64,000 nt of DNA from positions 818,501-882,500 of the forward strand of contig NC_087082.1 in assembly GCF_026151205.1 (NCBI RefSeq). The letters are read 5' to 3'. Made by a program: the position numbers and the translations under genes. This document shows, in pieces, positions 5,321-49,923 of the stretch. The stretch comes from Bolinopsis microptera (Eukaryota > Ctenophora > Tentaculata > Lobata > Bolinopsidae). Position 1 is the first letter of the stretch. Every line of letters begins with the position of its first letter. The notes beneath the pieces were generated by a model. That model was not told where the DNA came from, did not search any database, and saw nothing but the letters and a program-made list of their open reading frames with translations.

Positions 5321-5630
5321 TGTTTGTAGGTAATAAGCAATGAAACCCAGTAATCGTATAACCAAGCTGAAATGATCTATATCAATGTATAGTAAATAAT
5401 ACCTTTAGTCAATCTGAATAACTCACAATACTTCTATAAAGAGTAAAAAGGGATAAACCCATAAACACTTGACGGAGAGAAAGTAACTCACCAAGAAAGC
5501 TCCGTCAAGGATCGTAAGCTCTAGTAGGTCTCTAGAGTCTGTCATATAAAACAACCATGCTTAAGGAAAACATGGGGTTACATAAAGATATATCCTAATA
5601 TAGGAAATCTAGAGAAAAGGATATATGACA
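5321..5630 (-). repeat. 3' LTR of the copia element
   Basis: A 310-bp repeat with TG...CA ends, matching 24026-24335 at every position I compared. On the minus strand it is the downstream LTR. It contains 'cttgacggag' near its middle and a partly complementary 'gctccgtcaagg', so the transcript could form a stem. Confidence 0.92.
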
Positions 5631-9200: not shown

Positions 9201-10137
9201 GTAAGGCAACTGTGGGTCTTGGATGAGCACGTTTATGTTTAAGGCAGTAGTCACAAGAGGTATCTAAAACTATCAGCTCTCTCTCAACTTCTTTATTGGA
9301 CATATCTGCATTCTTCAGAAGTTTAATTACTCTCCCTGAACCTGCATGTGCAAAGCGCTTATGAAGTTTAAGGGCTTTCTTCTTAGCTTCAAGTAAGCCT
9401 GTATGATCTTCATTGGCAATCATAATCTCACAAGTGACATTGTTGACATAGGATGGGTCTCTCTCTTTTGCTAGTGGTAAGGCATAATGTCCTGTACTTG
9501 TTGTTGTTAAGGAGAATGAATTACCATCAATCTTAGCTTCATCGGTCTCAAAATCAATATTCATTCCTAAAGCTTTCATAGTCTGTAGTGATATGAGGAG
9601 GGGAATATCCGTGGCTACCACATCTACCTCTAATCTGATGTCACGTTTGCATATTGTCACTGGGATAAGAACTCTCTTTGATGCTCTCATAGTGCCGACC
9701 CCAAACCTGAACATGGTGTCGGAAGGGTATTCAGTCACTTGTTCTCTAACCTTTTCAGGGAGTGAGTCTAGGTAAATAGTGTACCATTCTGTGCCACATA
9801 CGGTACGACTGGCTCCGCAATCAAGAACTGCTTGATTGATTGTTTCGTCAACTAAAAGTATAGTCTCAATCTCGCTTCCAATATTAGATTGGAAGAATAT
9901 AGGTATCCCACTTACATCAGATGAGCTCTGTTGGCTCTCATAAAACTGATCATCATAGCTAGCTTCTTCAGAACATAAATACTTATTATAGCCTCTGCTA
10001 TTGTTGTTAGATCTGCTATTGTTGGATCTGCTATTATTGTTGGATCTGTTGTTGGATCCAGTCATTCTTTGCCGCAATTCACGTACATGAGGGCAGTCTC
10101 TAATCATATGGTTCAGGTCACCACATCCATAACACAT
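6232..10137 (-). CDS. pol: Copia gag C-terminus and pol polyprotein
   Basis: About 1,300 residues without internal stops. A zinc knuckle C-x2-C-x4-H-x4-C lies near residues 6-19, followed by an Asn/Arg/Ser-rich linker. The protease site near residue 110 reads LDCGAS, where most families have D-(S/T)-G. An HHCC integrase domain (LHKRFAH...CDYC) is near 265-310, and the DDE core has D in VTMDLKK, D in ILTDNGGEF and E in QNGICERHN. An acidic linker follows at about 590-720. RT begins near 800 and has HVDD at the active site where YVDD is usual. RNase H is near 1140-1270 (AYADAS, EAMALGE, TDN). Upstream bases to 10149 belong to the LINE-1 junction, so the apparent start Met there is not native. 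The frame looks functional apart from its separation from the gag N-terminus. Confidence 0.9.
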   Translation of the reverse strand: MCYGCGDLNHMIRDCPHVRELRQRMTGSNNRSNNNSRSNNSRSNNNSRGYNKYLCSEEASYDDQFYESQQSSSDVSGIPIFFQSNIGSEIETILLVDETINQAVLDCGASRTVCGTEWYTIYLDSLPEKVREQVTEYPSDTMFRFGVGTMRASKRVLIPVTICKRDIRLEVDVVATDIPLLISLQTMKALGMNIDFETDEAKIDGNSFSLTTTSTGHYALPLAKERDPSYVNNVTCEIMIANEDHTGLLEAKKKALKLHKRFAHAGSGRVIKLLKNADMSNKEVERELIVLDTSCDYCLKHKRAHPRPTVALPLAYQFNELVTMDLKKINGTWILHCCDYVTRFSSAHVLMSKDSDEVMEKLFECWISVLGPPEKILTDNGGEFVNDKWQSMFAAFNILHKDTASEAPFQNGICERHNDLIGHMTQKVMEDVKCKIEIALMWAIHAKNSLISVLGFSPYQLVFGKNPNIPGNSTNKLPAMSSYTSSQTVANHLNSLRMSREAYIKAENAERVARAMRGRVYAGTHQRFFSGDIVYYKKRDLKQWQGPGKVLGQDGAQVLVKTGARTLIKVHPCKLILKQTAEKQMNSPDQTQAEEIEQTNKSPEKQTIPDNTESDSDDDEPRPVIPPLEQVTEDTAASTEHNNIEVDAEKENVQNETPEIQPESMEIEATVEEPVNTEEFFDAEDSIDEEKDNGISSRLRSRSSTQMTRGDVIYIKNIEFNTWVSCSLIEKEGLAGERWKVVNNSGERFIVDLELVEWLRTKEMPAKNDDAGLFADAIGDEKIWLNIARPSSNEEEIAMEKEMQQWQKFDVYEEVDKRKFPNQEVLSCRWVINQKEKPEGLCTKARLVIRGFQESNPQVADSPTAGKCVTRTFIMLANMFEYKLLCIDVRAAFLQSKPLDRLILVKPPKEKRTDNNMVWRLKKPVYGLNDAARAWYMTVKEELILYGCVQMPLDKSVFVYQPNEEFSGFLNVHVDDFLAAGNKDFHEKVLRRLKEKFQIGTEEYGDFTYVGWNIKQSAVSNNTVTIDQIDYQETKISPVSISSGRRNQPDYELSDLEKTEFQQLLGKLQWITSQSRPDLRYKVLESSMKAAKPRVSDLINLNAIVKKLKKQTVTIMLPSLSKDISQLKIYAYADASLNMLPGRTSSARGHAIFLVSGDSAGILSWCSRKIKKVTKTISYAEAMALGECLDEAYLIRETIITALCLSQNKTKDTVPIIGLTDNLSVKENIYSTNPSVDLKMRVQVAYLRKIIDDEEINKVVWIPDPQQLADCLTKSPKNKDPVENLLAVIQTGKLNIHPIQH

Positions 10138-10150
10138 ATTCACATCCATA

Positions 10151-10460
10151 ACACTAGACTACTCTTATACTGGTGATTCAGACCCACCCCTATCCCCCAC
10201 AATCCCAGCACCCCTTGCCTCAGCCATAGACGCAGTTACATCAAAGTGCAGACTGACCCATAAGCCCAACTCCATCCTAATAAACTACTACCCTCCCTCA
10301 GTTGATACCACCACTAGTAGCAAGCTCCCTTTTCACTCTGACGATGAGTCTGAGATTATTGCTAACTCAGAAATTGCTACTATCAGCATAGGCGACGTCA
10401 GGAAGGTGTGCTTTAAGTGCATCTATGAGACCGGAAACGAAGCCTCAACTGAGTATGTTC
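10151..10460 (+). pseudogene. LINE-1 ORF1, first piece: start of AlkB-like domain
   Basis: The frame reads YSYTGDSDPPLSP...INYYPP...FHSDDESEIIANSEIATISIGDVRK. It lines up with residues 304-400 of LINE-2 ORF1, including the HSDDE motif whose His and Asp are the first two iron ligands of AlkB-type dioxygenases. The upstream part of ORF1 (PHD finger, coiled coil) is missing because of 5' truncation. The domain is then split by a 546-bp repeat insert. Confidence 0.7.
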
Positions 10461-11006
10461 GGCAACTTGGTCGTTTAGCTCCGGACAGTCTATGCAACGT
10501 CTATGCAACGTCCATGCAACAACAAAAGAACCGTCTATGCAACGTCTATGCAACGTCCCTGCACAATGAACACTCTATGCACACTCCCTGCACGGTCAGT
10601 CTATGCAACGTCTATGCAACGTCTATGCAACGTCTATGAAACTAACCGGCTTAAGAGCCGGTTAGTAGCCGGTTAGTAGCCGGCTAGTGACCGCTTTCTA
10701 AGTGCCGGCTAGTAGCCGGTTTGGAACCGGCTACTAGTAGGTCCGCTTAAGAGCCGGCTAGTGACCGGTTAGTAGCCGGTTAGTAGCCACTTGGTGGTTA
10801 CTAGCCGGTTAGTAGCCGGTTAGTAGCCGGCTAGTGACCGCTTTCTAAGTGCCGGCTAGTAGCCGGTTTGGAACCGGCTACTAGTAGGTCTGCTTTAGAG
10901 CTCGGCTAATAGCCGGCTAGTGACCGGTTAGTAGCCGGTTAGTAGCCACTTGGTGGTTACTAGCCGGTTAGTAGCCGGTTAGTAGCCGGCGAGTGACCGC
11001 TTTTCA
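10461..11006. repeat. GC-rich palindromic tandem-repeat insert flanked by a 9-bp repeat
   Basis: It is flanked by agtatgttc at 10452-10460 and 11007-11015. The left part (10486-10640) repeats 'tctatgcaacg' with 'ctccctgcac' variants. The right part repeats a unit of about 160 bp made of agccggttagt/agccggctagt blocks, itself rich in AGCCGGCT palindromes, in two and a fraction copies. The element's coding frame is interrupted here. A 9-bp duplication is the size made by Mutator-like transposases, but no good terminal inverted repeat is visible. Confidence 0.6.
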
Positions 11007-11770
11007 AGTATGTTCATAGTGTGAGTCCAGAATCTAACTCAGTGTATGTGATGACACGATCGTCACAAGCCTGGTATCGTCACGGTATTGATGAAACAGG
11101 TCCTGCTGAAACTCAGTCTTCTGTGCAGACAGGAAGGTTCTCCATCACACTGAGAACTGTGAGCAAACAGTTTAGCCGGAGCTGCATCATCATGGGCGAC
11201 TCTAACACCAAGCCCATCAAGTTCGGTGTCGGTACTGGAACCCTTGGACAGTCCTTCCCAGGTGAACGTGTTAAAGCCAACAAGGTCAGTGCAATAGACC
11301 CTAAGCTCTGCATTGGTTATAGCAACGTCATCTTAGTTTGTGGGACCAACGATCTACGAGTTGAAAATGTGCAGTCACCTGGTGATATACACCAGCTGGT
11401 AGACATTCTCCACCTGAAAATCCAGCAGATCCAGAAACTGTGCCCTAAGGCAAAGTTGTTTGTCACAGCAGTTTTACCGTCTAGACTCCCTAAGATGAAT
11501 AAAAACATTATGGCATTCAACAGCTTGGTTGATGAAATGTTGTACTCTAGCTTTAACCAGACTGTATGGCACCTTGGTGTTGGCCACTTTTTAGACGGGA
11601 AAGGGTTGCTTGCTATGAAACTCACGAGAAATGGTGATGAAATCCATCTCGGAGAGCTTGGTATTGCTAAATTTGTGAGATGTCTGAAACAGTGGGTGTA
11701 TGTGAGGGAGAGACAGGAGAGAGTAAGACAAAGGAAGGCCACCCGACCAGTGGGAGTTTATCCCACTTAG
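11007..11770 (+). pseudogene. LINE-1 ORF1, second piece: end of AlkB-like domain and SGNH esterase
   Basis: The frame resumes with SVYVMTRSSQAWYRHGID...GRFSITLRTV, the distal His and the 2-oxoglutarate-binding Arg of the AlkB-like fold. SGNH motifs follow: GDSN (nucleophile Ser), GTND (block III) and DEIHLGELG (Asp and His of block V). The TAG stop lies six bases before the ORF2 ATG, the same compact ORF1-ORF2 arrangement as in LINE-2. Because the dioxygenase is split by the repeat insert, this copy cannot make the whole protein. Confidence 0.75.
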
Positions 11771-11776
11771 TTTATC

Positions 11777-14700
11777 ATGATTATGAAACTTATTAAAGAT
11801 GTGTGCGACCCCTGTAGTAAATACATTAATATTGGCCAGCCACTCTTAGAATGTGAAAATTGCAGCAAAGTTGTTCATACTAAGTGCTTCAGATCCGCGA
11901 AATTTACAAGCAAAAACGGTCTATGGATGTGCAGTGATTGCTGTAGTACAATAGAAGATAGGTATTGCCCATTTCCAAGCAGCCAAAGATATGATGATTC
12001 AGATAAATTCTATGATACAAACAACCAGGAAGATGTCACCATAGCTAAATTCTCTTCAATACTTGAAGACTGTAAGCGTTACACAAAACAAGAACTAGCA
12101 AACTCAATCAGCAAACTTTTTCCTGAGAAAAATAAAAATTCTGCTTATCTGCCCGCTCTGTTTTGCAATATAGATGGGTTTGCTAGTAATTTTGACAGCT
12201 TTTTAATAGAACATAAGACCCTCCCGTGTAATTTTGATGTCATTGGATTGGCTGAGACCAACATCGATCCAAGCCAACAAGGCTTATACCAAATCCCCTC
12301 CTATACAACATTTTGTCAAGTACCATTCCCTGATAAGAAAAAAGGAACAGGAGTATCCTTATATGTCTCTGATCGCCTGAATGCTGTAGTAATCGAAAAT
12401 CTATCTCACTGTACAAAAGATATTGAGTGCTTATTTGTTGAAATTACTCTTAGCTCGGGTGATAAACTGACATATGGGGTTGCTTATCGTCCTCCAAATG
12501 GCTGTAGTGAGACCTTTTGTCAAACTCTTGAGGATATATATCTAAGAAGTTGGCTGGTAAAAAGTTCCATATTCTTGGCGATTTTAACTCTAACCTCCTC
12601 AATGTACAAACCTCCAGCCAGCTATTTGAGGACACGTTACTTCGTAACAATATGTATCCTACTATATCACTTGCTACCCACTTCCGTCCTAACTGTAAAA
12701 ACTCATGTATTGACAATATCCTCACATCAGAGATAGATCATGTACTTCTCTCCGGTGTATTGAATGATAGGATTGGTGACCATGCCTTTATATTCACCTT
12801 CACGTCAATTCCTACCGAAAACAGTACTGAAAAACTTAAACATGTTCGCTACTATGATTATTCAAGTTCCAAACTCACTAATTTTGTTAATGAACTCGAG
12901 GTGAAGGTGAATGACTTGACTCCCTCGGTAAACTTCAATGAGTTCTTGGACTGCTTCAATGAAACACTTGATAAACACTGTAAGCTTGATGTACCAAAAG
13001 TTACCAAAAGGACTCCCAAACTCAACCCGTGGATTACCGATGGAATCATTGTCTCAGTTGAAAGAAAACATGAACTCTGTAGAGACTGGTCAAGCACTGT
13101 AACAAATAGAAACCCTGAGGGTAATGTACTGCTCTATAAAGTCTTCAGTGACTACCGAAGAATGCTTAAAAGTATTATCAAGGTCGCCAAACGATCGTAC
13201 TACTGCAATGAAATCCATAAAAATATAGAAAACAGCAAAAAAAACGTGGCAGATAATCAATGAGCTCAGGGGCAAGAAAAAGAAGCAAACTAAGCCTCCC
13301 TTTATCATAAACAACGAACGAATCATGAATCGTAGAGTCATAGCCAATGGATTCAACTCTTACTTTGTTTCTATTGCCCCTAAGCTCAATGAAACACTTA
13401 GTACGGTGAGGCCTCTGGTTTACCAATTCTCCATATAAAAACATTCTATGATTTCCTTGGAAAGACTAATGAAAAATCGATTATGTTAGAAGACTGTACA
13501 CCTTATGAGATAACGGAAATAATAAAAGGATTTGAAAATGGAAAAGCAAGTGATATTCCTGTTAGTGTAATCAAAAGATCATCTCATGTAATTACACCGA
13601 TCCTTAGTCGATACATCAACATCTTAATGTCTAATGGCACGTTCCCCGACGTTCTAAAGACTGGTAGAATAACTCCTGTATTTAAGAAGGGAAACCCTGA
13701 AGAGATAGAAAACTACCGCCCAATCTCTACTCTCTCTATATTTGGTAAAATCTTTGAAAAGATCATTTACTCAAGAATATATTCGTTTGCTAGCTCACAG
13801 GGTATAATATCTAAAACACAATTTGGCTTCAGGCAGTCACACTCTACTTCACATGCAGTTAATCACTCAGTAAACCTTATAACTGAATCTCTAAAACTTA
13901 AGCATCATGTCTTAGGCATATTCATAGACCTTAGCAAAGCTTTTGATACAATAGATCATGGTACATTACTTGTCAAATTACAGGGCTATGGGATACGTGG
14001 GGTGGCAAATGATCTTATAAAAAGTTAAACTTAACAAATAGATCACAATATACTGAAGTTGTTGGTGAGAAATCTGACGCCTTGAAAATACAGTTTGGAG
14101 TCCCTCAGGGTTCGATTCTTGGACCTCTCTTATTTCTCCTATATATTAATGATATCGCCAACAGCTCCAGTTTGGGATCATTTGTCACCTTCGCTGATGA
14201 CACCAATATATTTGTGACTGGGAAATCTAAAAAGGAGGCATATATGCGTGGTAATTCTCTTTTAGCTAGTTTATATTCCTACATGCGAGCAAACAAACTC
14301 CATGTCAACTTGTCTAAATGCTGTTTCATTCACTTTAAACCAGCATCGTCCTCCCAGACTGACAATAATTCTGAATATACTCTAACCATTGATAACTTTC
14401 CAATAAAACAAGTTGCATCTGCTAAGTTTCTGGGAGTCGTCATCGATGAAAAGCTAACCTGGGAAGAACATATAAAATCACTTAGGCGTTCTCTCAGCCA
14501 TGCAACATCAACTCTCTGCCGCCTACGCTGCTCCCTCCCAGATTTCTTACACCGCCAGTTGTATTACACTCTATTTGAATCACACCTCTCCTATTGTATC
14601 ACGGTTTGGGGTGGGGCAGCCAAAACTCGTATAAGTTCTGTATTCAAAGCACAAAAATATTGTCTCAGGGTACTGTTTGGCGACAGGGAGGCATACCTAG

Positions 14701-15176
14701 ATAAATTTAAGACCTGTGCTCGTGCTCGACCGTTTGGCAACCAAAATCTGAACAAAAAATTTTTCTTGAAAGAGCACACGAAACCTTTGTTCAAGGAACA
14801 CGGAATACTTGCCGTCCAAAACCTGTACACTTACCATTGTTTCCTTGAGCTCTATAAAATCATGAAATTCCGTGCTCCGATTTCCCTCCATGAAAATTTC
14901 ACCTGCTCAAGTAGGAAACCCACCCTTATACTAAGCCAAGCAGACCCCCCTGACAACTTCAATAGCAGAACGACTCGTATTTGGAACGTAATTGTGCCTA
15001 AGCTTGGTATACGTGACTACTGTCTAAGTGTGGCCTGCCTGAAGTCTAGGATGAAGCAATCACTGCTCGTCAACCAGCATAACCATGCTGATCTTGATTG
15101 GACAAACAAAGATTTCGAATGCTCTAATCTAAATTTTGACATTAAGTCTACCCTAGGGTCCACACATCCAAAATGA
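11777..15176 (+). pseudogene. LINE-1 ORF2: zinc finger, endonuclease, reverse transcriptase, four frameshifts
   Basis: ORF2 starts with a PHD-like Cys/His cluster (CDPC...CENC...HTKCF...CSDCC), then an EEP endonuclease (GLAETNI, VAYRPP, GDFNSNL). RT follows (RPISTLS, FIDLSKAFDTIDH, GVPQGSILGPLLFLLYIND, FADDTN) and then a C-terminal domain with CARARPF. The frame breaks near 12548, 13248 (a run of eight A), 13402 and 14030. Each break is repaired by one base when compared with LINE-2, and I see no nonsense substitution between them. The copy is dead as read, or the breaks are base-calling indels. Confidence 0.82.
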
Positions 15177-17430: not shown

Positions 17431-20400
17431 CTAGCATGGTCCAAAACTGTTAAAGTTGTCATTATGCCACTCATTATCGAACCTGCTTTGGGCATCTAGA
17501 AGAGATCGGTTTAGCCTTGATTTGATTGAGTTACAGGATGTGTTCACAAAGTCAGGTTTATTCTGTGGATTGGAGTCCTTGAATTGATTCCAAAGCCAAG
17601 AAGATTTATAAATAAAGTTATGGCTTGGCTTTGGTGGTATTAGACGGTCATCCCTCAGTTCAGACATGTTAAGTAAAGAGTAGAGAGATATGGGTACCCT
17701 ATATTTCACTATTTTAAAAGGTTCAGTTATAGTACGAAGTTTGTAAAGATTATGAACAGTAAGGAGTTTATGACTGTTAAATAATGGTTTGGTTGATTCC
17801 TTGGAATAGAATTCAGCTCCTAGTTTTTGACAACATAAGGGTCTAACAAGTTTATTATGAACTACCGATTTAGAGCGGACACACTTTGCACATGGTTTAA
17901 TACGTGGATTAACAGAGTTATTAACATTAGACTCATATTTACCCAGTATTTTACATTGAATAGGTCTAGAACGAGCACATGTTTTGAATTTGTTTTGGTA
18001 TGAGTTTGCATCTCCAAAAATTATTCTAATAATCTCTTCTGTGTTAAGAATACAGGGTTGATAACTTGGTTAGAGACACCACCCCATACTGAGATGGCGA
18101 ACGTAAGGTGTGATTCAAATAGTGTGTGGTATATCTGCTTGTGCAGTTTTATAGGTAGACAGTTTTTTATGCGGTAAATACGTCCACAAGCACTTCTTAG
18201 TTTCTTATTTAGTGATTCGATGTGAGGTTTCCAGTTCAGTTTATCATCAATCAGCACACCTAGAAACTTAGTTGTTTTAACACGTATTATTATGGAGCCG
18301 TCTATGGAGAGATTTAAATCATCGGGTGTACTGCATGTAGACGATTCATTTACACGTTTGTTTGGGGAGAAATACATATAACAGCTCTTCTTAGCGTTAA
18401 TATGTAGTAGATTACATTTCATGTATCTAGAAATAGACGAAAGAATATCGTTAGCTACATCATAAACGTCTTTTTTCGAGTCTGCAGAAACGAATAGGTT
18501 AGTGTCGTCAGCAAATAAGATAAACTTGCCTTTATTAGATACGTTGCATAGGTCATTTATATACAGGAGGAATAGTAAGGGACCAAGAACAGAGCCTTGG
18601 GGAACTCCCCACTCAACAGGAAGTTTATCGGAGTTTTCATTTAAGACGTGAACATATTGGCTCCGGTTTGACAGGTAACTTTTTATCAAATTCAGTGCGT
18701 TGCCCCTAATTCCGTAATTATTTAATTTGAATAAAAGCTTCTCGTGAGATATCGTGTCGAAAGCCTTACTTAAATCAATGAAAATGCCAAGAACGTGTTT
18801 CCTGTCTTTTAAGTGTGATTCGATATGGCTAACAGATAAGTTCAGTGCGTGGCTTGTTGAGTGACCCTTTCTAAATCCAAATTGGTTCTCATAAATGATT
18901 CTTTTAGCAATTAGGAAGCTGTACATACGTTTATAAATAAGTTTCTCTAAAATTTTTCCAAATACTGGTAAGGTTGATATTGGCCTATAGTTTTCAAATA
19001 GTTCCTGATTATCTTTTTTATAGATGGGACTTATCTTTCCTAATTTAAGTTCATCTGGGAATATCCCCTGTTGCATGCAATGGTTAAAGTGCTTGGCTAA
19101 AAAGGGAGATATTATTCTAGCAGACTTTTTTATAACGTGAATTGGAATGTCACTAGATTTACCATTTGTGAACTCATTAATAATATCTATAATTTCATAC
19201 TGTGTACAATCACTTAGATATATACTTGACTCACAGGTTTTAGGTAAGAAGTTTGAGAATGAGGGAATTGCATCCAGGGTTATATAATCTTCAGAATAAT
19301 TTTCATTTAGTTTGGATGCAATCGACTGAAAATATTTATTGAATTCATTAGCAATCATCCTACGATTTATTATTTTTTGATCGTTAAGGATAAAACATGG
19401 CTTTATTTCACGCCTGGATTTTCCACGAATAGTGTTTATGATTTCCCACGTTTTCTTACTATCACCAGAGCAGTCAGTTAATTTACCTGCATAATGATTC
19501 TTCTTGACACGGTCAATAAGTACCTTGAGATGCTTCCTGTAATCCTTATATTCAAGGTATCTTTTTGCTATATTCATACAAGTGAGGCAATTACACTCCT
19601 CGCGTTTAATATTATTATTATTAGTTAGCAATAAACATTTTTTCTTCTGAGACTTTTTCCACAAATCATAGAGCGAGTCTTTCGTTCGAATTGAGGTAAC
19701 AATACCACTAGTAATCCATGGGTTGTTCAAAGCGTTACGTTTAGATAATTTCGGTTTGTCAAGTTTGAATGCCTCGTCTAGGTGCTTCTGAAAAGTAGTG
19801 CAGAAACTACTGAAGTTTTCAGGAGGATTGGTATGTAGTTCATTATCAATTGATGTGAGAAAGGCGTCTACATTTGAGGTGCTATAGTCGTAATATTGTG
19901 CGTGTTTAAGTTTAGGTTCATCAGCTACAAAATTAAGACAACTATTGATTTGAAAGATGGCATGGTGATGAGAAACATTGAGTTGCAACGTTCCTGTAAA
20001 CAACGTGCTTTCGATTTCATTAGTGAAAATATTATCAATACAGGATGGTTTACATTCAGGCTTTTCGTGTGTTTGGATAGATATCGTTGGTGAGTACCCT
20101 AATCCGAGCATTATGTTTTCTAATTCTTGTGTGCATCTTCTATTGCCGTTATGGAGGTTAATATTAAAATCACCCATTACATGTACATTTAACTTTGGGA
20201 GTTTACCCATAATTACTTGTAGCTCAGCGAGAAACTCGTCAATGTCTCCACTAGGTGGTCTATAGATTACTCCTACGTTTATAGTTTTAGATTCTTGATG
20301 AATAGTCACAAAGAGGCTTTCTAAATTACTGGTGACGTTTGATACATCTACATTAACGACTGCATTAAAAGCATTGTGAACATAAACTGCAACGCCCGTT

Positions 20401-20930
20401 CCTTTCGATTTGTTATGCATTGTAGTCTGGTAGAAACTATTGAATCCATTAATAGGGTAAACGGAACTCTCTTCTGGGCTAATATTGGTTTCGGCAAGGC
20501 CTATGATAGGGAAATTGTGTTTGAGGCACTCTAATTCAGATATGAGATGGTCGAAGTTGCTTTTATTGCCGTCGATATTCAGGAAGAAAGAGCCGCCATT
20601 TTTATGAAGATCGGCACTAAGTTCGTTATTAAATTTGTTGGTGGAGTAAGGCTTACAATATTCTAGAACTTGTGACATTTTCAGAATCAAGGGGTCGTTG
20701 TTATTGTTATCCGACTTACTAATCATATCTTTAAACGGGTTGTACTGTTTAAGGATTAGCGCTTTGCACTGACTACAAAAGTAATTTGAGTTGATCACGG
20801 TTGCTTCAGAGTTTTTGAAACATTTTTCATGTATAATGCAATTGCATTTAAAACATTCAACAAATTTTTGACCTAAACATAAGCTCTTAAGGCAGTGACT
20901 GCATTTTTCCTTATTTGAGAAAGTTACCAT
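17431..20930 (-). pseudogene. LINE-2 ORF2: PHD-like finger, endonuclease, reverse transcriptase, one frameshift
   Basis: The first 969 residues are open (18021-20930). A single-base frame change near 18030-18045 then moves the remaining C-terminal part (to 17431) into another frame. The N-terminus has a PHD/RING-like cluster (CSHC...CFKC...HEKCF...CSQC, residues 10-65). EEP endonuclease follows at about 110-330 (GLAETNI, VIYRPPSG, GDFNINL, then SHHHAIF where SDHH is usual). RT is at about 560-860 (RPISTLPVFGK, FIDLSKAFDTISH, GVPQGSVLGPLLFLLYINDL, LFADDTN). The ATG overlaps the ORF1 stop (ATGGTAA), which fits termination-reinitiation. A zinc finger in front of the endonuclease is not the usual LINE layout, but LINE-1 has it too. 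Confidence 0.85.
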
Positions 20931-22942
20931 ACCTGGTAACTGTACCCGCCTCCTCCTCTGGCAACTGAACTGAAGGGTCTCCCGTCAACTCTGCTAGTCG
21001 GTCCTCTTCGTTTATCAACTCCTCGGTGGAGCCTGGAAAATATGGTTTGTTTAATTAGGCCAGCAAGGACCCTAGCACCTAGTTCGTTAAGGTGAAGCGT
21101 GTCAGGCCTGTTTTGTCGATCAACTGTCTTGGACAATTGATGGACCAACATGCCATAATGATCAGCAAAGCCATTAAAACCTTGCACACTCTGAACACCA
21201 GAACTCATAGATGTAAGACCGTTCGTCAGCAGTTCATTAAACAAGTTAACTTTTCTATTCAAATCAGCAATTTTAGTAGGAAGCAGCGGGCAAACATAAA
21301 CAAAACATTTAGGGTTCAGCAGCTTAATTTCTTTTATTTTTGTTAACAGCGAACTACATACACTTCTGACGTTACTTTGAGGTTGCTTTATATCATTTAT
21401 CCCGCACATGATAACAACATTGCTGTAGGATTGACAGCTGTAAGGGTCAATGTTGTTGATTATAGGCGCCCATTCTTTAAGGCCAGGCATGAGTTCACCA
21501 AATGTATTACGTTTATTAGTCCCAAACTTGAGCATTCCTGTATTTGAATCTCCTATCAAGATTGTAGAGTTTTTGTTCTTCCAGTTAACTGATCTGAACG
21601 TGAGGCTATATCTGATGTCCTGGGTGACGTTACCTTCTGGAATTGAATGAGTGAAAAAGTCTTGTGATTTTCTTGTCATATGATAGAGTGATCGGTGGGT
21701 GGATGTTAGGTCAGACTTGACACCAGACTTTTTGTCAAGGAACTGGATGGAGCATTCTTGGCCGAGGGACAGTGTGAAAATGGATGATTCGACATCTATA
21801 GTGGGCTCGTCGTCTGAGTGGCTGGGAAGTGAACTATTAGGGCCTTCGTACCTATTTATGAGACATGAATTGATGACAGGAGGTGAAGGATGCCTCTCAG
21901 GATGTGACTTGAAGGTGGGGTGCTGTTCGTAGAATAATTCCTTTTGTAGGACATTGATTTTCTCCAGTATCGGCTGAAGCACCAGGGGGATTGGGGTTGC
22001 ATCGGCACCAGATTTGGAACCTGTATACGTGTAAGGAGCTCCGAATGCAACAGTTGAGCGGCCTGATTCAGACACAAATGACAATGACTCTAGTGATGTG
22101 GTGATATTTGAGGCTGTATCTTCATTGATGAATTCTAGTTTGAGGTCGGTGAAGCTTTTCTGATTGTGCTCTATGGTAGTTGTGGGTTCAGGGACAACTG
22201 TGGGTGGGTGGGTGAGTGGGTGGGTGGGTGGTGTGACACGACTAGGATGGACCCAGGGCTGAGAGCTTGATGGTGCTTGGGTGATTTGAGGGCTGCTTGA
22301 GGAGGCAGTTGATTTCTTAAGGTCATCCATACTAGACTGAAGCTCAGTGATCTGATTTTTCATAGTTTTAAGTTTCTCATCAACCTGACCTTCTTGGAGG
22401 GTCCGATGTTGAATATGTAGCTCAATGTCTCCTAGCTTGAGTATTCTCTCAGAAATGGTCTTGGTGGTAGCTCCGAGATCGTTTGTGTTGGATATCAGCG
22501 AAGTTAGTTTCTCCTCCATTTTCATGACAGTTTCTTCAAGATCAATGTTTTTATTCCTCAGATTAGACATATTGAGAAGTAAAGTCTCGATCTGTTGGTT
22601 GTTACGGATGGTCACGCCAGGGGCACTGAAACAAAGCGGACAGAGCCAATCCTCTATCTGTGTAACAAACTGTTCGGAAATACCTTTTAGATTACAACAA
22701 TTGCTGTGCCAGGTTTGAGGGCAAGAGGTACAATCAATAATCCATGAGGTTTTATCACTAGTTCCACAGGGACATTTATCATACCTGATGTCCGGTTTCG
22801 AGGTTTCTCCTGATTTGGTGGCTTTCTTCGGGGCCTTTTTGGCTGGGTCCTTTGCTATATCCTTTGCTGTACGGTTGGGGGTTGCTGCGGTCTTGGTGTT
22901 GGTGTCTTTCTTTAATACCATATTCACGGAAAACAAGATCAT
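20924..22942 (-). CDS. LINE-2 ORF1: PHD finger, coiled coil, AlkB-like dioxygenase, SGNH esterase
   Basis: 672 residues, intact. A Lys-rich start (Met1 or Met8 could initiate) is followed by a PHD-like finger at 57-104 (CPCG...CTSC...WHSNCC...CPLC), a predicted coiled coil at about 115-212 and a Pro/Ser/Thr linker. Residues 300-450 fit the AlkB fold: FGAPYTYTG, IPLVLQPI, then CLINRY, HSDDEP (His375, Asp377), IFTLSLG, THSIP (His432) and RYSLTFR (Arg444, Arg450). These are the iron and 2-oxoglutarate ligands in the right order and spacing. An SGNH hydrolase follows, with GDSN (Ser466), GIND (514-517) and DTLHLNE (Asp614, His617). Esterase-type ORF1 proteins are known in CR1/L2-like LINEs. The AlkB-like neighbour is what stands out. 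Demethylation of the element's RNA or cDNA is inference. Confidence 0.82.
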   Translation of the reverse strand: MILFSVNMVLKKDTNTKTAATPNRTAKDIAKDPAKKAPKKATKSGETSKPDIRYDKCPCGTSDKTSWIIDCTSCPQTWHSNCCNLKGISEQFVTQIEDWLCPLCFSAPGVTIRNNQQIETLLLNMSNLRNKNIDLEETVMKMEEKLTSLISNTNDLGATTKTISERILKLGDIELHIQHRTLQEGQVDEKLKTMKNQITELQSSMDDLKKSTASSSSPQITQAPSSSQPWVHPSRVTPPTHPLTHPPTVVPEPTTTIEHNQKSFTDLKLEFINEDTASNITTSLESLSFVSESGRSTVAFGAPYTYTGSKSGADATPIPLVLQPILEKINVLQKELFYEQHPTFKSHPERHPSPPVINSCLINRYEGPNSSLPSHSDDEPTIDVESSIFTLSLGQECSIQFLDKKSGVKSDLTSTHRSLYHMTRKSQDFFTHSIPEGNVTQDIRYSLTFRSVNWKNKNSTILIGDSNTGMLKFGTNKRNTFGELMPGLKEWAPIINNIDPYSCQSYSNVVIMCGINDIKQPQSNVRSVCSSLLTKIKEIKLLNPKCFVYVCPLLPTKIADLNRKVNLFNELLTNGLTSMSSGVQSVQGFNGFADHYGMLVHQLSKTVDRQNRPDTLHLNELGARVLAGLIKQTIFSRLHRGVDKRRGPTSRVDGRPFSSVARGGGGYSYQVW

Positions 22943-24025: not shown

Positions 24026-24335
24026 TGTTTGTAGGTAATAAGCAATGAAACCCAGTAATCGTATAACCAAGCTGAAATGATCTATATCAATGTATAGTAA
24101 ATAATACCTTTAGTCAATCTGAATAACTCACAATACTTCTATAAAGAGTAAAAAGGGATAAACCCATAAACACTTGACGGAGAGAAAGTAACTCACCAAG
24201 AAAGCTCCGTCAAGGATCGTAAGCTCTAGTAGGTCTCTAGAGTCTGTCATATAAAACAACCATGCTTAAGGAAAACATGGGGTTACATAAAGATATATCC
24301 TAATATAGGAAATCTAGAGAAAAGGATATATGACA
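24026..24335 (-). repeat. 5' LTR of the copia element
   Basis: 310 bp, TG...CA ends, same as 5321-5630 by eye. In element orientation it is the promoter-bearing LTR. TATA-like AT-rich strings are present, but no start site can be fixed. Confidence 0.92.
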
Positions 24336-25474: not shown

Positions 25475-28400
25475 CTAGTCTGGCCAGACTGTATCGGCAG
25501 CCCAGAGGTACTTGATCAGATTGGCCTTAAAAGTAGAAATCCGCTCTGACTGCCGGATACATACTGGTAGACTATTCCATTTCAGCATAGATCTATGAAA
25601 GAAGCTATTTCGGAAGGCATCCGAGCAGGGCACAGTGGTACTCATGTAAGTTGAAGTATCCGACCTATCAATTATTTGAGCATTGTGCCTGGTGTATCGG
25701 GTGCCCTCTGGACGGCATAGGACTATATAAGTAGGAAGCGAAACTGGGATTATGCTATTCACTATTTTATAGAAGGTCATAAGATCGTTATAAATAAACT
25801 TCTGCATGACAGGGAGAATATTTAGCTTCTTTTGCTCTGTAGCAAGTTTATCGTCATTATAACTGGAGTAGGGTTCACCATTGATCCATTTAATAGCCCT
25901 CTTTTGGATAGCAACAAACTGTTGAAGATGAGTTGCAGATTGAGGGGACCATATGACAGAACAATGTTCAAATATAGACCTAATTAACGCTAGATAGAAC
26001 GATCTTTTCTGCCTTTTATCAGTAGTGAAATGACATGTTCTCTTAAGTAGTCCAAGTCTAGAGTTAGCTTTGGAAACAAGCGCTTTACATTGTGCACCCC
26101 AATTAAACCTGGAGTTTATTGTGACTCCTAAATCTGACTGAGAGGGCACAAAGTCAATATCACTTCCAGAAAGTTTATAGAAGAAGGTATTGAATGGCAA
26201 GTTATCCAGCACGTTTCTTTGCAGGGACACAGAGAGGGCTTTGCACTTTTGTGGGTGGAACTTCATTCGATTTCTCACTGACCAATCATACAATCTATTG
26301 ATGTCATTTTGGATTATGTGATGGTCAGGGTAACCAAGAATCTCCCTCCAAATTTTAGTGTCATCTGCATAAAGGGCGATATTGGTGCCTTCAGAGACAC
26401 ATGAGAACATGTCATTTATAAATATAACAAACAATAAAGGGCCAAGTATAGAACCTTGAGGGACACCAGACCGAACTGGTAGAGAAGAAGACGTTTGGCC
26501 TCCTATCACTACTTGTTGTTGTCGCCCCTCAAGATAGGACTTAATAAATTTAAGCATTAGTCCATCGACATTAAAAATATTCTTTAATTTACTTAAAATG
26601 AGGTCATGCGAAACGCTATCAAAAGCTTTCGCAAAATCAAAATATATTATATCAGTCCTGGACCTGTTATTCAGTGCAAGTGCAAGATTATCTGTGAAAG
26701 GTATCATTTGGGTTGTGCATGAACGTTCATTAACAAAGCCGTGTTGTCGGTCATCCAACAGATCAGAACATGCAGCGTATAATGCAGTCTTTATGCACCT
26801 TTCAAAGACTTTCATTACAAGAGATGTTAACGAAATAGGCCTGTAGTTCTCAACCGAAGACTTATCGCCCTTTTTGTGCACTGGTACTACAAGTGCCAGC
26901 TTCCAATCAGAGGGTATGCATCCGCTCGAGAAAGACAGGTTAAATAAAACACTAAGTGGGTATGCAAGGCTTTGGGCACAGTTTTTGAGGACTTTCCCAT
27001 GAATCCCATCAGGGCCAGGGGCCTTGTTAGGATTTAACTTTTTAAGAATTAACAGAACATCTTCTCTACTAAACACAAGACTTGAAAAACAATCATCACG
27101 AAAATCTATGTCAATGCCATAATCGCTCTCTTGAGAAAACTGCTCATAAAAATATTCGTTAAAAAGGGCAGCTTGATCAGATGGATTGTTTCGAAAGCGA
27201 TTATTATATTTGACAGTTTCAGGGATCCTGGTTGACTTTGATTTAGATTTAACGTAGGTCCAGAATTTCTTGGAGATAAGAGCATCATCGGAGTCATCCT
27301 CAACACTGAGTCTCATTCTTTCGTCCATCATATTTTTAAATTTTGTTCGAAATGCACGAAACTTTTGTTTATGAGACTCAGAGTTGCTCCCCTTATGCCT
27401 TATCCTCCATTTCTCCTTATTTCGTAGGAGACGATCACATTCGGAGTCATACCATGGAGGCTGGAACTGAGACTTAATGGTCTTTTTAGGGATCCATCGG
27501 TCACAGGCTGCATCAAGAACTCCTCTGAATCGACTCCAGGCAAGATAAGGATCATTACACCCAAATATACTATCCCAATCGATGCTAAATAACTCAGAAT
27601 TCAGGCCCCTAAAATTACCTTTACTATAATTAAAGATCTTTCTTTTAGGCTGCTTAATATACTTTGTCTTAACATCAATGTCAAATGTGATACAAAAGTG
27701 GTCGGACATACACATTTCGTTTTGATCTAAAACTTTAACATTCTTAATAAGGTTCTGAATGTTAGTGAACACAAGATCTAAGGTGTTGCCTGACTTGTGA
27801 GTAGGGGAGCTAATAAGTTGTGTATGTCCGAGGTCATCAGTGAGAAAATTTACAAAGCTAGAATGTAGCTGGCAAGTTGACTGACCATCTGGCCAGGAAA
27901 TCGAAGCTAAATTAAAGTCCCCTACCAGAATATGCCTTTGCAACTTTCTGGCAGATGCTAAAGTAACAAAATGTTTCTTGAAAGATTCAAAATTATCTAA
28001 GCCAAGCGTTCCTACTCTATAGAATGTAGATATGCAAAAGTTTCTTCCACACTGAGTCTTAATTATGATGGATAATAATTCAGCTTGAACGCTAACCTTT
28101 GAGAACTTTAGACTCGAAATATCAATGTCTGTTCTATGGGCAATCAGAACACCACCACCGTTTTTTCTGAATTTCTTGGGCTGGGTTGCATCCACAGGAT
28201 GCGATCTTAAGGATCGATCAAGCCTAAATACTTTGTATTTGTCAGGGAGCACCTCATTACTGAGAATGGAATTTTTCAGCCATGTCTCGTTTAGAATAAT
28301 GATGTGAGGCTTATGTTTGTAGATATAACCATGGAATTCATGTATCTTGGTCATATTTAGTGGTGGTGTTCCTGATGCTAGATCGCGGGTATTTAGGAAA

Positions 28401-28927
28401 CCATGGACATTATTGTAAACAACGGATAAATTTGGTCCAGGGTTCAGTAAGGAACAATTACAAATTACTATCAGGGAAATATTAAGGAGAGATAGAAAAA
28501 CCAGACCACACCTAGACATGACCCCAAGCCAGCTGCTGGTAACACCGAAAAGTAACTTAACAGTCTGTTTCGGTGACATGGTAGGTGACAGTTCGGTTTT
28601 TGTGGTAGATAGCAATTTTACAGAAATTGCAGCTAAGGCTGTCCCAATGCCCCTCTCCCCCCTATACACAAGTTTAAAGTGTCTGAGAAAAATGGTACAA
28701 AATATTACCATAAAGTAAAGATTTATGGATGACCTCAAACATGGTACAGAGTGTATTTTAGGTTGGAGGGGAGCACTAGGGAGTGTATTAGCATCGATAG
28801 TCAAAGAAAATATATACAAAATAACATAGAAATAAAATAGACCCAATAGAGCACATAACATGACGAGACAGAAGACAGGACAACAAATTTTCCCCGTTAC
28901 CTCTATTACTTTTACTGATGATAACAT
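25475..28927 (-). CDS. LINE-3 ORF2: endonuclease and reverse transcriptase
   Basis: Open for more than 1,150 codons, with the first ATG at about 28927. The first 170 residues are hydrophobic and Cys-rich and end in LLNPGP, which resembles the end of 2A-like sequences found before the endonuclease in some CR1-like LINEs, although the preceding GDVE is not conserved. The EEP endonuclease runs from about 180 to 420 (LNETWL, STFYR, GDFNLAS, SGNTLDLVF, SDHFCI). RT occupies about 620-880 with YADD. A C-terminal domain follows (EHCSVIWSPQ, QKRAIKWI). No stops or frameshifts interrupt it, so the catalytic part looks functional. The true start could lie inside the hydrophobic region. Confidence 0.85.
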   Translation of the reverse strand: MLSSVKVIEVTGKICCPVFCLVMLCALLGLFYFYVILYIFSLTIDANTLPSAPLQPKIHSVPCLRSSINLYFMVIFCTIFLRHFKLVYRGERGIGTALAAISVKLLSTTKTELSPTMSPKQTVKLLFGVTSSWLGVMSRCGLVFLSLLNISLIVICNCSLLNPGPNLSVVYNNVHGFLNTRDLASGTPPLNMTKIHEFHGYIYKHKPHIIILNETWLKNSILSNEVLPDKYKVFRLDRSLRSHPVDATQPKKFRKNGGGVLIAHRTDIDISSLKFSKVSVQAELLSIIIKTQCGRNFCISTFYRVGTLGLDNFESFKKHFVTLASARKLQRHILVGDFNLASISWPDGQSTCQLHSSFVNFLTDDLGHTQLISSPTHKSGNTLDLVFTNIQNLIKNVKVLDQNEMCMSDHFCITFDIDVKTKYIKQPKRKIFNYSKGNFRGLNSELFSIDWDSIFGCNDPYLAWSRFRGVLDAACDRWIPKKTIKSQFQPPWYDSECDRLLRNKEKWRIRHKGSNSESHKQKFRAFRTKFKNMMDERMRLSVEDDSDDALISKKFWTYVKSKSKSTRIPETVKYNNRFRNNPSDQAALFNEYFYEQFSQESDYGIDIDFRDDCFSSLVFSREDVLLILKKLNPNKAPGPDGIHGKVLKNCAQSLAYPLSVLFNLSFSSGCIPSDWKLALVVPVHKKGDKSSVENYRPISLTSLVMKVFERCIKTALYAACSDLLDDRQHGFVNERSCTTQMIPFTDNLALALNNRSRTDIIYFDFAKAFDSVSHDLILSKLKNIFNVDGLMLKFIKSYLEGRQQQVVIGGQTSSSLPVRSGVPQGSILGPLLFVIFINDMFSCVSEGTNIALYADDTKIWREILGYPDHHIIQNDINRLYDWSVRNRMKFHPQKCKALSVSLQRNVLDNLPFNTFFYKLSGSDIDFVPSQSDLGVTINSRFNWGAQCKALVSKANSRLGLLKRTCHFTTDKRQKRSFYLALIRSIFEHCSVIWSPQSATHLQQFVAIQKRAIKWINGEPYSSYNDDKLATEQKKLNILPVMQKFIYNDLMTFYKIVNSIIPVSLPTYIVLCRPEGTRYTRHNAQIIDRSDTSTYMSTTVPCSDAFRNSFFHRSMLKWNSLPVCIRQSERISTFKANLIKYLWAADTVWPD

Positions 28928-29165
28928 ACCTAGAAAACATACCAGTTGCAACACGGTGTTGTTGAGCTGATATTCCCATGGAACTTATAAGTATATTATT
29001 AACAGAATTGTGTCTCGCCGTTGTGTTTTGTTAGGTATTGTGCTATAATATGAAGTAACATACATTATGTTATCACTTCGTTTGAATACATATAAATAAC
29101 ATCCAAATGATCAGATCCAATAGGATACTGATGCAGGCAATGAAAAATTGAATTGAATTACCACA

Positions 29166-29971
29166 TCAGTATCCCAATGGATTAAACCACTTTGAGTGTA
29201 TAATTCTGAGATAGAACTTTGCCAACACTGGCATCCCAGCCTTGGGGCTGGGATGAATATCATAAAAGCCCCTATTGTCACATTTAGGAAATAATCTCTC
29301 GTTTCTGTTTCCATAGCGGTCTAAGAAAGCCCAAAAAACATCAAGGTAAAACAGTTTATGTCTAGAGCAGCGATCAAAGATCAAATTATTCATAGCACAA
29401 ACATTACCAGGGATTTTCTCTTGTCCGTTGGGGTGGACTGGTGGAATTGCTTGTACAAAAACACGTGCATTAGGATAAAGTTTTTTTGCTGTCTTCATAA
29501 GGTCACTCACAGGGGTCTTGAGATGATTGACACCCTGGGTACAGTACCGGATGTCGTTGGCACCGAAGCTTAAGAACAGTTTCTTTACCTGCACAAGAGG
29601 GTTCTTTGTATGAAAGGCCTCAATAGAGTTCTGTATAGCTGAGATCTTAAGCCCACCCTTAGCTATGTTGGTGACAGTTTCTTTACCTCTACTGAGGCGA
29701 TCAGCGTCCAATCGGGCAGCAAAGGAGTCACCAGCAATGAGGATGATAGACTTCTGGTGTTTGTGGGAGTCTGTGATGGGGGCTTTTGGAGATACTTTAT
29801 TAGGACTGTCGGATGTAGGAGAGGGAAGAATAGGAGATGAAGGGGAAGAGGAGGGTGTGGTTAACTTTCTGAAGGAGAGACTATACCTCCAACAAATTTC
29901 ATTGTCAGAAGGTGCATCTCCTGGAGCAATCCTGTGCCTCATGACTTGCTGTGCACCAGGCTTGATACTAT
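29166..29971 (-). pseudogene. LINE-3 ORF1 fragment: end of AlkB-like domain and SGNH esterase
   Basis: The frame opens after a stop near 29972 with SIKPGAQQVMRHRIAPGD...RYSLSFRKL, i.e. the distal His and the Arg motif of an AlkB-like dioxygenase. The SGNH domain follows: GDSFAARL (Ser), FGANDIR, and DIHPSPKAG (Asp and His). The first iron ligands (HxD) are missing because the element is truncated. The sequence is only distantly related to LINE-2 ORF1, so the AlkB-SGNH pairing occurs in a second family. Confidence 0.7.
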
Positions 29972-29985
29972 ACTATACTATTAAC

Positions 29986-31117: not shown

Positions 31118-34100
31118 ATGTCGTCTTCGTCGTACCACATCACCACTCTTCTTGAGAAGGTATGCTATATTTCGGTTACCAGGTTACCAGGTTACCAGGT
31201 TACCAGGTTACCAGGTTACCAGGTTACCAGGTTACCAGGTACCACATCACCACTCTTCTTGAGAAGGTATGCTATATTTCGGTTACCAGGTTACCAGGTT
31301 ACCAGGTACCAGGTTACCAGGTTACCAGGTTACCAGGTTACCAGGTACCACATCACCACTCTTCTTGAGAAGGTATGCTATATTTCGGTTACCAGGTACC
31401 AGGTTACCAGGTTACCAGGTTACCAGGTTACCAGGTTACCAGGTTACCAGGTTACCAGGTTACCAGGTACCACATCACCACTCTTCTTGAGAAGGTATGC
31501 TATATTTCGGTTACCAGGTTACCAGGTTACCAGGTTACCAGGTTACCAGGTTACCAGGTTACCAGGTACCACATCACCACTCTTCTTGAGAAGGTATGCT
31601 ATATTTTGTTTCTTGTAAAAGTTTGATTATACATGATTTTTAATTCAATAATGATCTTAGATCAGCAATAATATTTACTACATCTACGAGACGGTTCACG
31701 TAAAACTTTTAATTTTTGCTAATCGCAAGTTCACATAAAATCATGAGATAATGATGCCAATCAGTTACTCGTTTTATATTTCAACTGACTTACTTGACTT
31801 AAGGCGGGTGGTATTCCCGAGATCCATTGACAACAGTTCTCCACAGCTTTCTGTCCTCCATCAGTCTAGCTATCTCATCTACTGACTTCAGCCCAGTATC
31901 TGCTTTTAGGTTATCTAGTAGTGTTAAATGAGGTCGCCCCCTGTTAGTATGCCCATGACTCGGCTTCCAGAGGATCAGTTTGTTCAGTGTCAGCTCCGGA
32001 TGTCGGTGAGCATGACCTGCAAGTCTGAGCCTTCGTTGGGTTATCTTGGAGCTGACTTTGGGAAGATCACCGTACAGGCTGTGGTTGCTGACATGGTCTC
32101 GATATTGGTTGATGTTAAGGGCCATTCTTAACATTCGCGTATAGCAACCATCAACCATCTTCTCTAGCCTTTTCGTCATTGTCCAAGTCTCGGAACCGTA
32201 CAGTAGCACCGACTCCACTAGTGCTGTAAACACTCTGATCTTGATAGACTTTCTAAGCTTAGAATTCCAAAGCTTTTTGAGTGTGTGGCATGCTCCCCAT
32301 GCTCTTCCTTTCCTAACCCTGATATCACTCTCACTGTCTCTGATTCTAGAACCCAGATAAGTGAAGTCTTCCACATGCTCTATTGTACTGTTACCCAGGG
32401 ACTTGATGGTATCAGGGTTCTCGATGTTCTGAGTAATGAATTTGGTTTTCCCTTCATTCATTCTAAGTCCCACTGTAGCAGCAACCCTTTCTACCTCTAG
32501 CATCAGCGTCTCTGCCTCCTTTACAGTATCTGCTATCAGAGCAATGTCATCTGCAAAACCAGTGTCTGATATCTTCTCCGCCTTAACTCTCCTACTCCTA
32601 TAAGGCTTAATGGTAAATCCTATTTCAGGGTGCTTGCTTAAGGCTTGTCTCATGCAATAGTCAAGGGCTATAATGAACAAGTATGGTGCTAACGTATCCC
32701 CTTGAAGAACTCCTGCCAGGATATCAAATAGCTCAGTATCCCCATCAGGTGTAATAACTTTGCCCTTTGTGTTTACATAGAGTAGATTAATGATATCCAC
32801 AATACTGTCTGGTATCCCATAGGCCTTTAGTATTTGCATCAAAATTCCCCGGTGAAGTGAATCAAAGGCCTTCTTAAAATCAACAAACACCATAGCTGCC
32901 GGTAGGTTTCTCTGTCTAGCCCCCTCTAGTATCCTTCTGAGTGCCAAGATATGACTAGTAGTGGACCGTCCTTCCCGAAAACCATTCTGAGTGTCCCTAA
33001 GTACCCCTTCTATGGCCGGCTGGATCCTATTAAGCACCATTCTATTAAGAGTCTTTGCTACAAGTGAAGTCAAAGATATCCCCCTCCAGTTTCCAGGGTT
33101 TGTCAAGTCTCCCTTTTTGGGGACCGGAATGATGTTGCTTATCCTCCACTGATCTGGCGCAATACCATCTGTCAGGGCTTTGTTGCAGAAGGACAACACG
33201 ATTTCATCCAGATCGCATCTTTTGAGGACTTCAGGTGGTATACCGTCATCACCTGGTGCTTTACCTTCTTTAATCCTGAGTTTAGCAGCTTTGAGCTCCT
33301 CTAGAGTAAAAGGTTCTGTACTGATGTTGAGTCCTTCAAATTGAGTCTCGATCCTAGGATGTTCGTTTTCCACATCAGGTGTACTCCCTAAAAGATTCGT
33401 GAAATGCCTAAGCCAATTTTCCTTCCTCTCTTCGGCTCCGTTGCCCCTTATTTGAGTTGCCCCCTTGGCCTTCCTACCAGTAATCTCATTTATGACATTC
33501 CAACTTTCTTTATTTTTGCATCTGTCTACAGCCATTTCGACCCTTTTAACCTTGGCAACTAGATCTTCCTCAAAGATGTCCTGGTACACCTGATCCAGTT
33601 CAGTTTTAAGTACGTTAACAGAGAGTCGACTGTCTTCACTAGGATCCCGGTGATAGACAGTCTCTGCTTGCTGCAACGCTGTACGCACGTTTTGAACTCG
33701 CTGATCACCCGCGAAACCGTCACGTCTCTTCTTTTCTCTCTTCGGCAGTATGGCTTTGTTGGTATCAGCAATCGCATCAACAAAATGCCCATACAGTTCC
33801 GTAACCTCACTTTCATCAGTTTGCTCGCATAAAGCAGAGTACCGATTCTTGACTTCTACTGCATATCTCTTCTGTAGGTCTTCATCCGATTTTAGTACTC
33901 CCCAATTATACCAGTCCTTGCCAAAATGTGTTTGTCAAAAGTTCAAATCTTGCTTCAGATGGGTGACGCTGACAAAGACTTTCGATACATGGCACTCACT
34001 GATCTAATGAGTGAGCTTCAGAAAGAGAGTCTATCACTTGACAGTGATACTGAAGAAAAGGTATTAATTGGGTTTTAAATAGATTCGTTATGCAATATAC

Positions 34101-48290: not shown

Positions 48291-48299
48291 TTTGTTTTC

Positions 48300-48431
48300 C
48301 CCCACATTGTCCTCCATCTCTCTCTCTCTCATCTTCTCCTTCTTCTCTCTCTCTCTTCTCTCTCTCCTCTCTCTCAACATTCTCTCTCTCTCTCATCTCT
48401 CTCTCTCTCCCCTCTCTCTCTCTCCTCTCTC

Positions 48432-48478
<47 letters not shown>

Positions 48479-49170: not shown

Positions 49171-49185
49171 GGTTTTAATCCAGTA

Positions 49186-49350
49186 AACCCGAGACCCTGT
49201 AATCTTCACCTACACTGTAACAGTATAAGTAACCCTGTAACAATAACACTGTAACAGTAACATTGTAACAGTAACACTGTAACAGTAAACAACTGGAACA
49301 GTAACACTGTAACAGTAACACTGTAACAGTAACACTGTACAGTAACACTA
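49186..49350. repeat. 14-bp minisatellite (gtaacagtaacact)
   Basis: About ten partly degenerate units built from gtaacact and gtaaca. Confidence 0.8.
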
Positions 49351-49439
49351 GTAACACACGAACTAAGTATCACTGTGTAAACAGGGTGAGGGGGTGTGTT
49401 TAAAGCTTGGGGACGTGAGGCGTCGTATGTAAACATTTT

Positions 49440-49800: not shown

Positions 49801-49923
49801 TTAATATATATATATGTAATGGCGACTTGTTTTTAAAGCTAGTATTTGTGGATTCGAGTACTCATTTCTAGACTTTATAATATTAAAATTAACATCAATT
49901 AAAATGTGTTGCCCCTACCTTAC

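Follow-up and report, generated by a model that had tools for sequence, protein, structure and literature searches.

We report that a long interspersed nuclear element (LINE) of the ctenophore Bolinopsis microptera, here called element 1, joins an AlkB dioxygenase and an SGNH esterase in one protein, the product of its first open reading frame (ORF1; 20924..22942, minus strand). Element 1 lies in the window, by which we mean the whole stretch of DNA that was analyzed (C11:818501-882500; 64,000 nucleotides), within a genome of 264,652,675 bases on 232 contigs. The domains, their fold, the intact catalytic sites, the selection on AlkB in related elements, and the spread of AlkB through mobile elements are shown computationally, and we hold it highly likely that the element 1 AlkB is an active 2-oxoglutarate-dependent nucleic-acid demethylase. 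The more specific reading, in which it would be a functional ALKBH2/3-type nucleic-acid demethylase, dependent on Fe(II) and 2-oxoglutarate, that cleans the element's own single-stranded template, has in our estimate an even chance of being right.

ORF1 encodes 672 residues, with its start at Met1 or Met8 (position 22921), and all of its features are on the minus strand. Behind an N-terminal tail of low confidence in the predicted structure comes a PHD-type zinc finger (22631..22774; residues 57-104) with a Cys4-His-Cys3 arrangement (C57, C59, C71, C74, H79, C82, C101, and C104), whose Pfam PHD match (E 0.0016) is under the Pfam cut-off and whose ligands are each present in 87/88 to 91/91 of those relatives that have a residue there. 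Structure prediction then places helices at residues 115-153, 160-167, and 171-210, the long ones of which look like a putative coiled coil (22313..22600; within residues 115-210) that a linker separates from the AlkB domain (21578..22150; residues 265-455). The SGNH/GDSL esterase domain follows (21023..21574; residues 457-640; S466, G487, N516, D614, and H617). The ATG of the second frame, ORF2 (18021..20930, minus strand), overlaps the stop of ORF1, and this frame holds an N-terminal PHD/C1-like finger, an endonuclease (E 4e-5 and 6e-5, slightly below the Pfam cut-offs), and a reverse transcriptase (RVT_1, E 4e-38). By these predicted proteins, element 1 is a LINE with an adjacent APE-type endonuclease and reverse transcriptase in ORF2.

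A preliminary description of this DNA had proposed an AlkB pattern with its iron and 2-oxoglutarate ligands in a LINE ORF1, with an SGNH domain (Ser466, Asp614, and His617) adjoining it, and both proposals were borne out: the first by Pfam, fold, and ligand conservation, the second by profile, fold, and conserved residues. The AlkB domain carries H375-x-D377, H432, R444, and R450, together with E379, N363, and Y304-x-Y306, and scores 51.4 bits in Pfam (AlkB/2OG-FeII_Oxy_2) against a curated cut-off of 31.2, while an NCBIfam scan gave AlkB only as a sub-threshold match (E 0.02). The description had also named a double-stranded beta-helix as the fold to look for, and structure prediction with fold comparison returned such a helix with the AlkB fold, along with a predicted SGNH fold for the esterase domain. 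The closest folds to the predicted AlkB domain were DNA-bound structures of ALKBH3 and ALKBH2, with ALKBH5 and FTO scoring lower, and the HxDxE spacing of the ALKBH2/ALKBH3 subgroup is present. A shortened nucleotide lid in the LINE AlkB was considered and dropped, the superposed domain being about as long as that of ALKBH2/3.

Relatives were collected by three protein searches, one for the ORF1 of element 1 (family 1; the best 120 of 270 matches) and one each for two further elements of the window, element 2 (family 2; 89 relatives) and element 3 (family 3; 32 relatives). Among the matches listed, family 1 includes proteins of Mnemiopsis leidyi and B. microptera. The description had named freely varying ligands as a finding that would speak against an AlkB enzyme, and instead they are near-invariant in all three families. 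H375, D377, H432, and R450 are each present in 120/120 of these best family 1 matches and R444 in 119/120; the corresponding residues (H, D, H, Arg450, and Arg444 in turn) stand at 87/88, 88/88, 88/89, 89/89, and 85/89 in family 2, and among the 32 relatives of family 3 they are present in 32, 32, 31, 32, and 32. Invariant positions make up 16 of the 191 AlkB columns in family 1 and include H375, D377, H432, and R450 (hypergeometric p 3e-5), and in family 2, where 11 of 192 columns have at most one departure, the ligands are likewise enriched (hypergeometric p 6e-6). With a median pairwise AlkB identity of 0.50 for family 1 and 0.46 for family 2, closeness of the sequences does not by itself explain this invariance. 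The SGNH residues of family 1 are conserved as well (S466, G487, and N516 in 120/120; D614 in 117/118 and H617 in 119/119 non-gap rows). One rigid motif pattern fits 110/120 members of family 1 and 73/89 of family 2, since motif spacing varies; counted by column, the ligands are there in almost every relative, including members that rigid patterns miss. Captured enzymes can in general lose their activity, and AlkB might then do no more than bind RNA or support the structure of ORF1; nothing further speaks for this, and with ligands near-invariant across 241 relatives while the 19 other H/D/R columns of the family 1 AlkB vary (none reaches 99% identity; the highest, R424, is at 92%), we regard it as very improbable. 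No relative turned up in viral_contigs, whether the scan used the AlkB-SGNH alignment or the AlkB domain. One relative, P0186, is filed at NCBI as a protein of a gammaproteobacterial metagenome-assembled genome (MAG), and probably represents animal DNA in the bin.

Across the genome, a search with PF13532 gave at least 151 AlkB matches, with 150 of the 587 candidates scored, and the matches listed are open frames without stops except for one row with internal stops. An assembly or contamination artefact, or a chance resemblance, would fit the many relatives on short contigs and the origin of P0186 in a bacterial MAG, but this genome of 264.7 Mb yields at least 151 matches, almost all of the rows listed are open, and Pfam, fold, and tree agree. 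This explanation is left with a negligible probability, and we take it as excluded. We then took 20 loci of about 10 kb by AlkB frame length rather than at random. At 12 of them (L034-L038 and L040-L046) the AlkB frame is followed by an endonuclease-reverse transcriptase-like frame on the same strand, which identifies them as LINEs, while at the other eight an esterase lies ahead of AlkB. Six of these eight (L027-L031 and L033) have both domains in one frame with the esterase first; in L039 the esterase is in a separate frame upstream and the AlkB frame shows AlkB alone in Pfam; and in L032 there is no match to the esterase profile, but by eye the frame starts inside such a domain, as a remnant would. 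Three frames (L027:383-9991, L030:348-9899, and L031:603-7979, all plus strand) run for 2459-3203 residues within their stretches and hold in turn SGNH, AlkB, DUF6570, a Rep-type domain, and a PIF1 helicase. Because Helitron_like_N (E 3e-23 to 5e-22) and PIF1 (E 3e-24 to 1e-20) share one frame with AlkB, these three are Helitrons, and L028, L029, L032, and L033 are classed as Helitron-type by their likeness to them.

The AlkB motif is intact in 7 of the 7 frames examined that have the esterase-first layout. Loci L007-L046 hold 43 AlkB frames (five places counted twice, and three host genes among them), of which one AlkB motif pattern misses 8 and another 2, these two being a frame with S for T in the last motif and a frame ending before that motif. 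The family 2 profile is matched at 97.7% probability by the SGNH domains of LINEb and at 96.2% by those of the Helitron-type frames. In a further LINE group, LINEc (L036, at L036:2703-5033 on the plus strand, L037, L038, and L046), the C-terminal end of ORF1 has SGNH-like motifs by eye and a profile probability of 21% (three shuffles gave <1%), and a search of this end against PDB gave no match for an SGNH domain.

Selection was evaluated as the ratio of nonsynonymous to synonymous divergence (dN/dS, Nei-Gojobori) of the AlkB part in 12 copy pairs, which are not independent of each other. The nine usable pairs gave ratios of 0.05-0.20, both for LINEs (L020-L041, 0.20; L035-L043, 0.13 at dS 1.85; L036-L038, L036-L037, and L037-L046, 0.05 each) and for Helitron-type elements (L027-L031, 0.18; L028-L030, 0.16; L031-L032, 0.15; L030-L032, 0.11), among which L028 and L032 were placed by likeness and not by the Helitron-domain scan. 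For two pairs of almost identical copies the ratios were 0.07 and 0. The flanking parts of the nine usable pairs had ratios of 0.10-0.94 where computable, above that of AlkB in all but two cases, the next part of L020-L041 (0.16) and the upstream part of L035-L043 (0.10). The AlkB domain of related elements is thus under strong selection.

To place these domains, a tree was built from LINE and Helitron-type AlkBs, two cyanobacterial AlkBs, and the host's own candidates, which by motif likeness are probably ALKBH2-like (L007) and ALKBH3-like (L008 and L009) and which serve as outgroups. This placed 19 of the 21 LINE rows and all five Helitron-type rows on one side of a 98/98 branch, whereas LINEc (L036 and L038 in the tree) fell with the cellular ALKBH3-like rows and is perhaps a separate capture. 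In approximately unbiased (AU) tests, one clade of all mobile AlkBs was not rejected (p 0.31), and one of LINEs alone came close to rejection (p 0.056). A smaller tree without host genes and Helitrons, which also omits the Mesorhizobium and E. coli rows for their very long branches (one of which broke up family 1), supported one origin of the LINE AlkBs at 93/84. A single ancient capture of AlkB that was later passed between kinds of element may account for these placements, as may more than one capture.

How might such a domain serve its element? The HxDxE motif and the closest folds suggest for element 1 an enzyme of the ALKBH2/3 kind, which removes m1A and m3C (1-methyladenine and 3-methylcytosine) from nucleic acid. 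The chance that methyls of the m1A/m3C type on the element's own strand are the substrate seems to us evenly balanced. Reverse transcriptases are blocked by methyls of this type, and laboratories employ AlkB to take them off (PMC8053708). We infer the demethylase activity, its substrate, its ribonucleoprotein setting, and its benefit to the element, and picture them as follows: the putative coiled coil would multimerize ORF1 protein on element RNA, AlkB would oxidize N-methyls on the base-pairing face (m1A and m3C) of the single-stranded RNA or first complementary DNA (cDNA) strand, and both the reverse transcriptase and the second-strand polymerase could then read through the demethylated template. 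The SGNH esterase would act within this particle on membranes or acyl groups. A LINE that packs AlkB with its RNA would in this way keep its template copyable.

Several observations weigh against this reading. ORF2 of element 1 is frameshifted near its C-terminal end, so this copy is broken, and the one pair available for its own dN/dS, with L042, is saturated. The AlkBs of LINEa, LINEb, LINEd, and the Helitrons stand apart from the host ALKBH2/3-like genes (98/98), and the substrate therefore cannot be read from kinship. Finally, AlkB is also carried by Helitrons, which do not pass through an RNA template, so that cleaning a template for reverse transcription is not the whole story; LINEs and Helitrons may have a common object in single-stranded DNA, in mRNA, or in element DNA that bears marks. 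Single-stranded DNA is at the center of one alternative, in which AlkB would repair DNA intermediates, namely LINE cDNA and the rolling-circle strand of Helitrons. LINEs and Helitrons both pass through single-stranded DNA, ALKBH2/3 and AlkB reverse 1meA/3meC damage in cellular DNA, and the nearest folds are DNA-bound structures, but LINE ORF1 proteins are thought to act on RNA, and we consider such repair rather improbable. The main rival is that AlkB erases silencing marks set by the host (N6-methyladenine as m6A in RNA, 6mA or others in DNA), as counter-defence and not repair. This would suit retrotransposons and DNA transposons alike, as it would AlkB with SGNH in LINEs and Helitrons of one genome, and an ALKBH5-like protein of an orchid Gypsy element demethylates m6A in vitro (PMC9289625, in the portion available); the HxDxE motif and the better scores of ALKBH2/3-like folds over ALKBH5 and FTO speak against it, and we rate it as unlikely, with a chance somewhat above that of DNA repair. 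Template cleaning by an ALKBH2/3-type demethylase is the reading that we prefer for element 1.

Taken more broadly, the occurrence of an AlkB-esterase pair in several kinds of element suggests that such elements use it to clean their nucleic acid or to rid it of marks. It is somewhat short of an even chance, in our judgment, that AlkB and SGNH form a two-enzyme module taken up repeatedly by ctenophore mobile elements for counter-defence or self-repair, in both orders: AlkB-SGNH in the ORF1 of several deeply separate LINE lineages, and SGNH-AlkB fronting Helitron transposases. If true, the module would free the nucleic acids or particles of its own element from methyl, and perhaps also from acyl, groups, which implies that the host methylates the nucleic acid of mobile elements, as a mark or as damage. 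The same enzyme pair in LINEs and Helitrons of one genome points to a common host pressure, and to our knowledge little is known of ctenophore defences against mobile elements. Among LINE ORF1 proteins, RNA binding, zinc fingers, and an esterase were already known; for a nucleic-acid demethylase in one we found no precedent in the literature searched. If active, it would mean that a retrotransposon carries along with its RNA an enzyme that cleans the template or erases marks, raising the testable question of whether direct reversal of base methylation decides mobile-element copying, and would offer a new enzyme source for removing methyls that block reverse transcriptase before RNA sequencing.

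Elements 2 and 3 were found by scanning the window with profiles of the element 1 family. Element 2 (minus strand) has an ORF1 remnant at 29166..29972, with the end of AlkB followed by SGNH (a match to the family SGNH profile) and its N-terminal part missing, and an ORF2 at 25475..28954 with endonuclease and reverse transcriptase; P0121, 90% identical to the remnant, has a complete AlkB domain. Over 816 residues its ORF2 shares 25.6% identity with the ORF2 of element 1, and the family 1 and family 2 AlkB profiles match each other with 99.5% probability at 25% identity. Element 3 (plus strand) has the first part of AlkB at 10133..10636 (Pfam E 9e-9), ending in tandem repeats that interrupt its AlkB-SGNH pieces (10133-11767), then the last part of AlkB (E 2e-5, under the Pfam cut-off) with SGNH (family profile E 8e-44) at 10997..11767, a first part of ORF2 with PHD/C1-like finger and endonuclease at 11777..12736, and a reverse transcriptase part at 14082..15176 that is 48% identical to element 1 over 200 residues. 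A second PHD/C1-like finger ahead of the endonuclease, matched below the Pfam cut-off, recurs in the ORF2 of element 1 (18021-20930, minus), element 3 (11777-12736, plus), and L044 (3993-7604, plus). Another LINE, at 59.6-62.5 kb of the window, is about as distant from elements 1 and 2 (24-25% identity) as the ORF2s of these two are from each other. The window further holds a Copia-type polyprotein of 1305 residues (RVT_2 and integrase; 6232-10149, minus), a pair of 310-base repeats at 100% identity (24026-24335 and 5321-5630), a long inverted repeat (51464-53139 and 57177-58816; identity 92%) that contains tandem units of about 366 bases, about 49 arrayed copies of the 8-base unit GGTTACCA (31174-31571), and a block with extreme strand asymmetry (48001-50000; GC skew -0.657), whose G+C is 0.50 against 0.37 and 0.42 in adjoining blocks.

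Among known systems, the esterase-bearing Type IV ORF1 of CR1/L2-type LINEs (ZfL2-1 ORF1p, PDB 4c1b) shares with element 1 a coiled coil (putative in element 1), the SGNH esterase, the PHD finger, and an endonuclease-reverse transcriptase ORF2, and both esterase activity and lipid binding are described for ZfL2-1 (PMC3905857 and PMC4120745, here as below for the portions available). Unlike the ORF1 of element 1, the CR1/L2-type ORF1s are described in those portions without the terms 'AlkB' or 'dioxygenase', and a search for the two terms in the available portion of PMC5408684 (which, like the other two, treats ORF1s or added ORFs) gave neither. Esterase ORF1s were reported in vertebrate subgroups only (PMC4120745), whereas element 1 is from a ctenophore. 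The preliminary description knew of no LINE with both AlkB and SGNH, and our literature search, which covered few subscription papers or Repbase reports and was not directed at Helitrons, found no LINE described with AlkB, whether alone or with SGNH. Human ALKBH3 and ALKBH2 have the fold, the HxDxE motif, the distal His, and the two Arg in common with element 1, but are cellular enzymes about 25% identical to it over the domain. Plant RNA virus replicases and picorna-like polyproteins, several of them among the best viral structure matches (about 160-190 alignment columns, or about one domain), carry AlkB within a replication polyprotein, and RNA viruses bearing AlkB replicate without reverse transcription. 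An orchid Ty3/Gypsy element encodes an ALKBH5-like protein that demethylates m6A in vitro (PMC9289625), and thus both it and element 1 are retrotransposons encoding an AlkB-family protein, the orchid one active in vitro. The orchid element is a long terminal repeat (LTR) element of one plant genus with the protein in an additional ORF, and SGNH is unmentioned in the portion of PMC9289625 available. Element 1, with its endonuclease-reverse transcriptase ORF2 and an AlkB that scores higher with ALKBH2/3 than with ALKBH5, falls outside that kind: its AlkB is ALKBH2/3-like, lies within ORF1, is fused to SGNH, and belongs to a kind found in several LINE lineages of this one animal.
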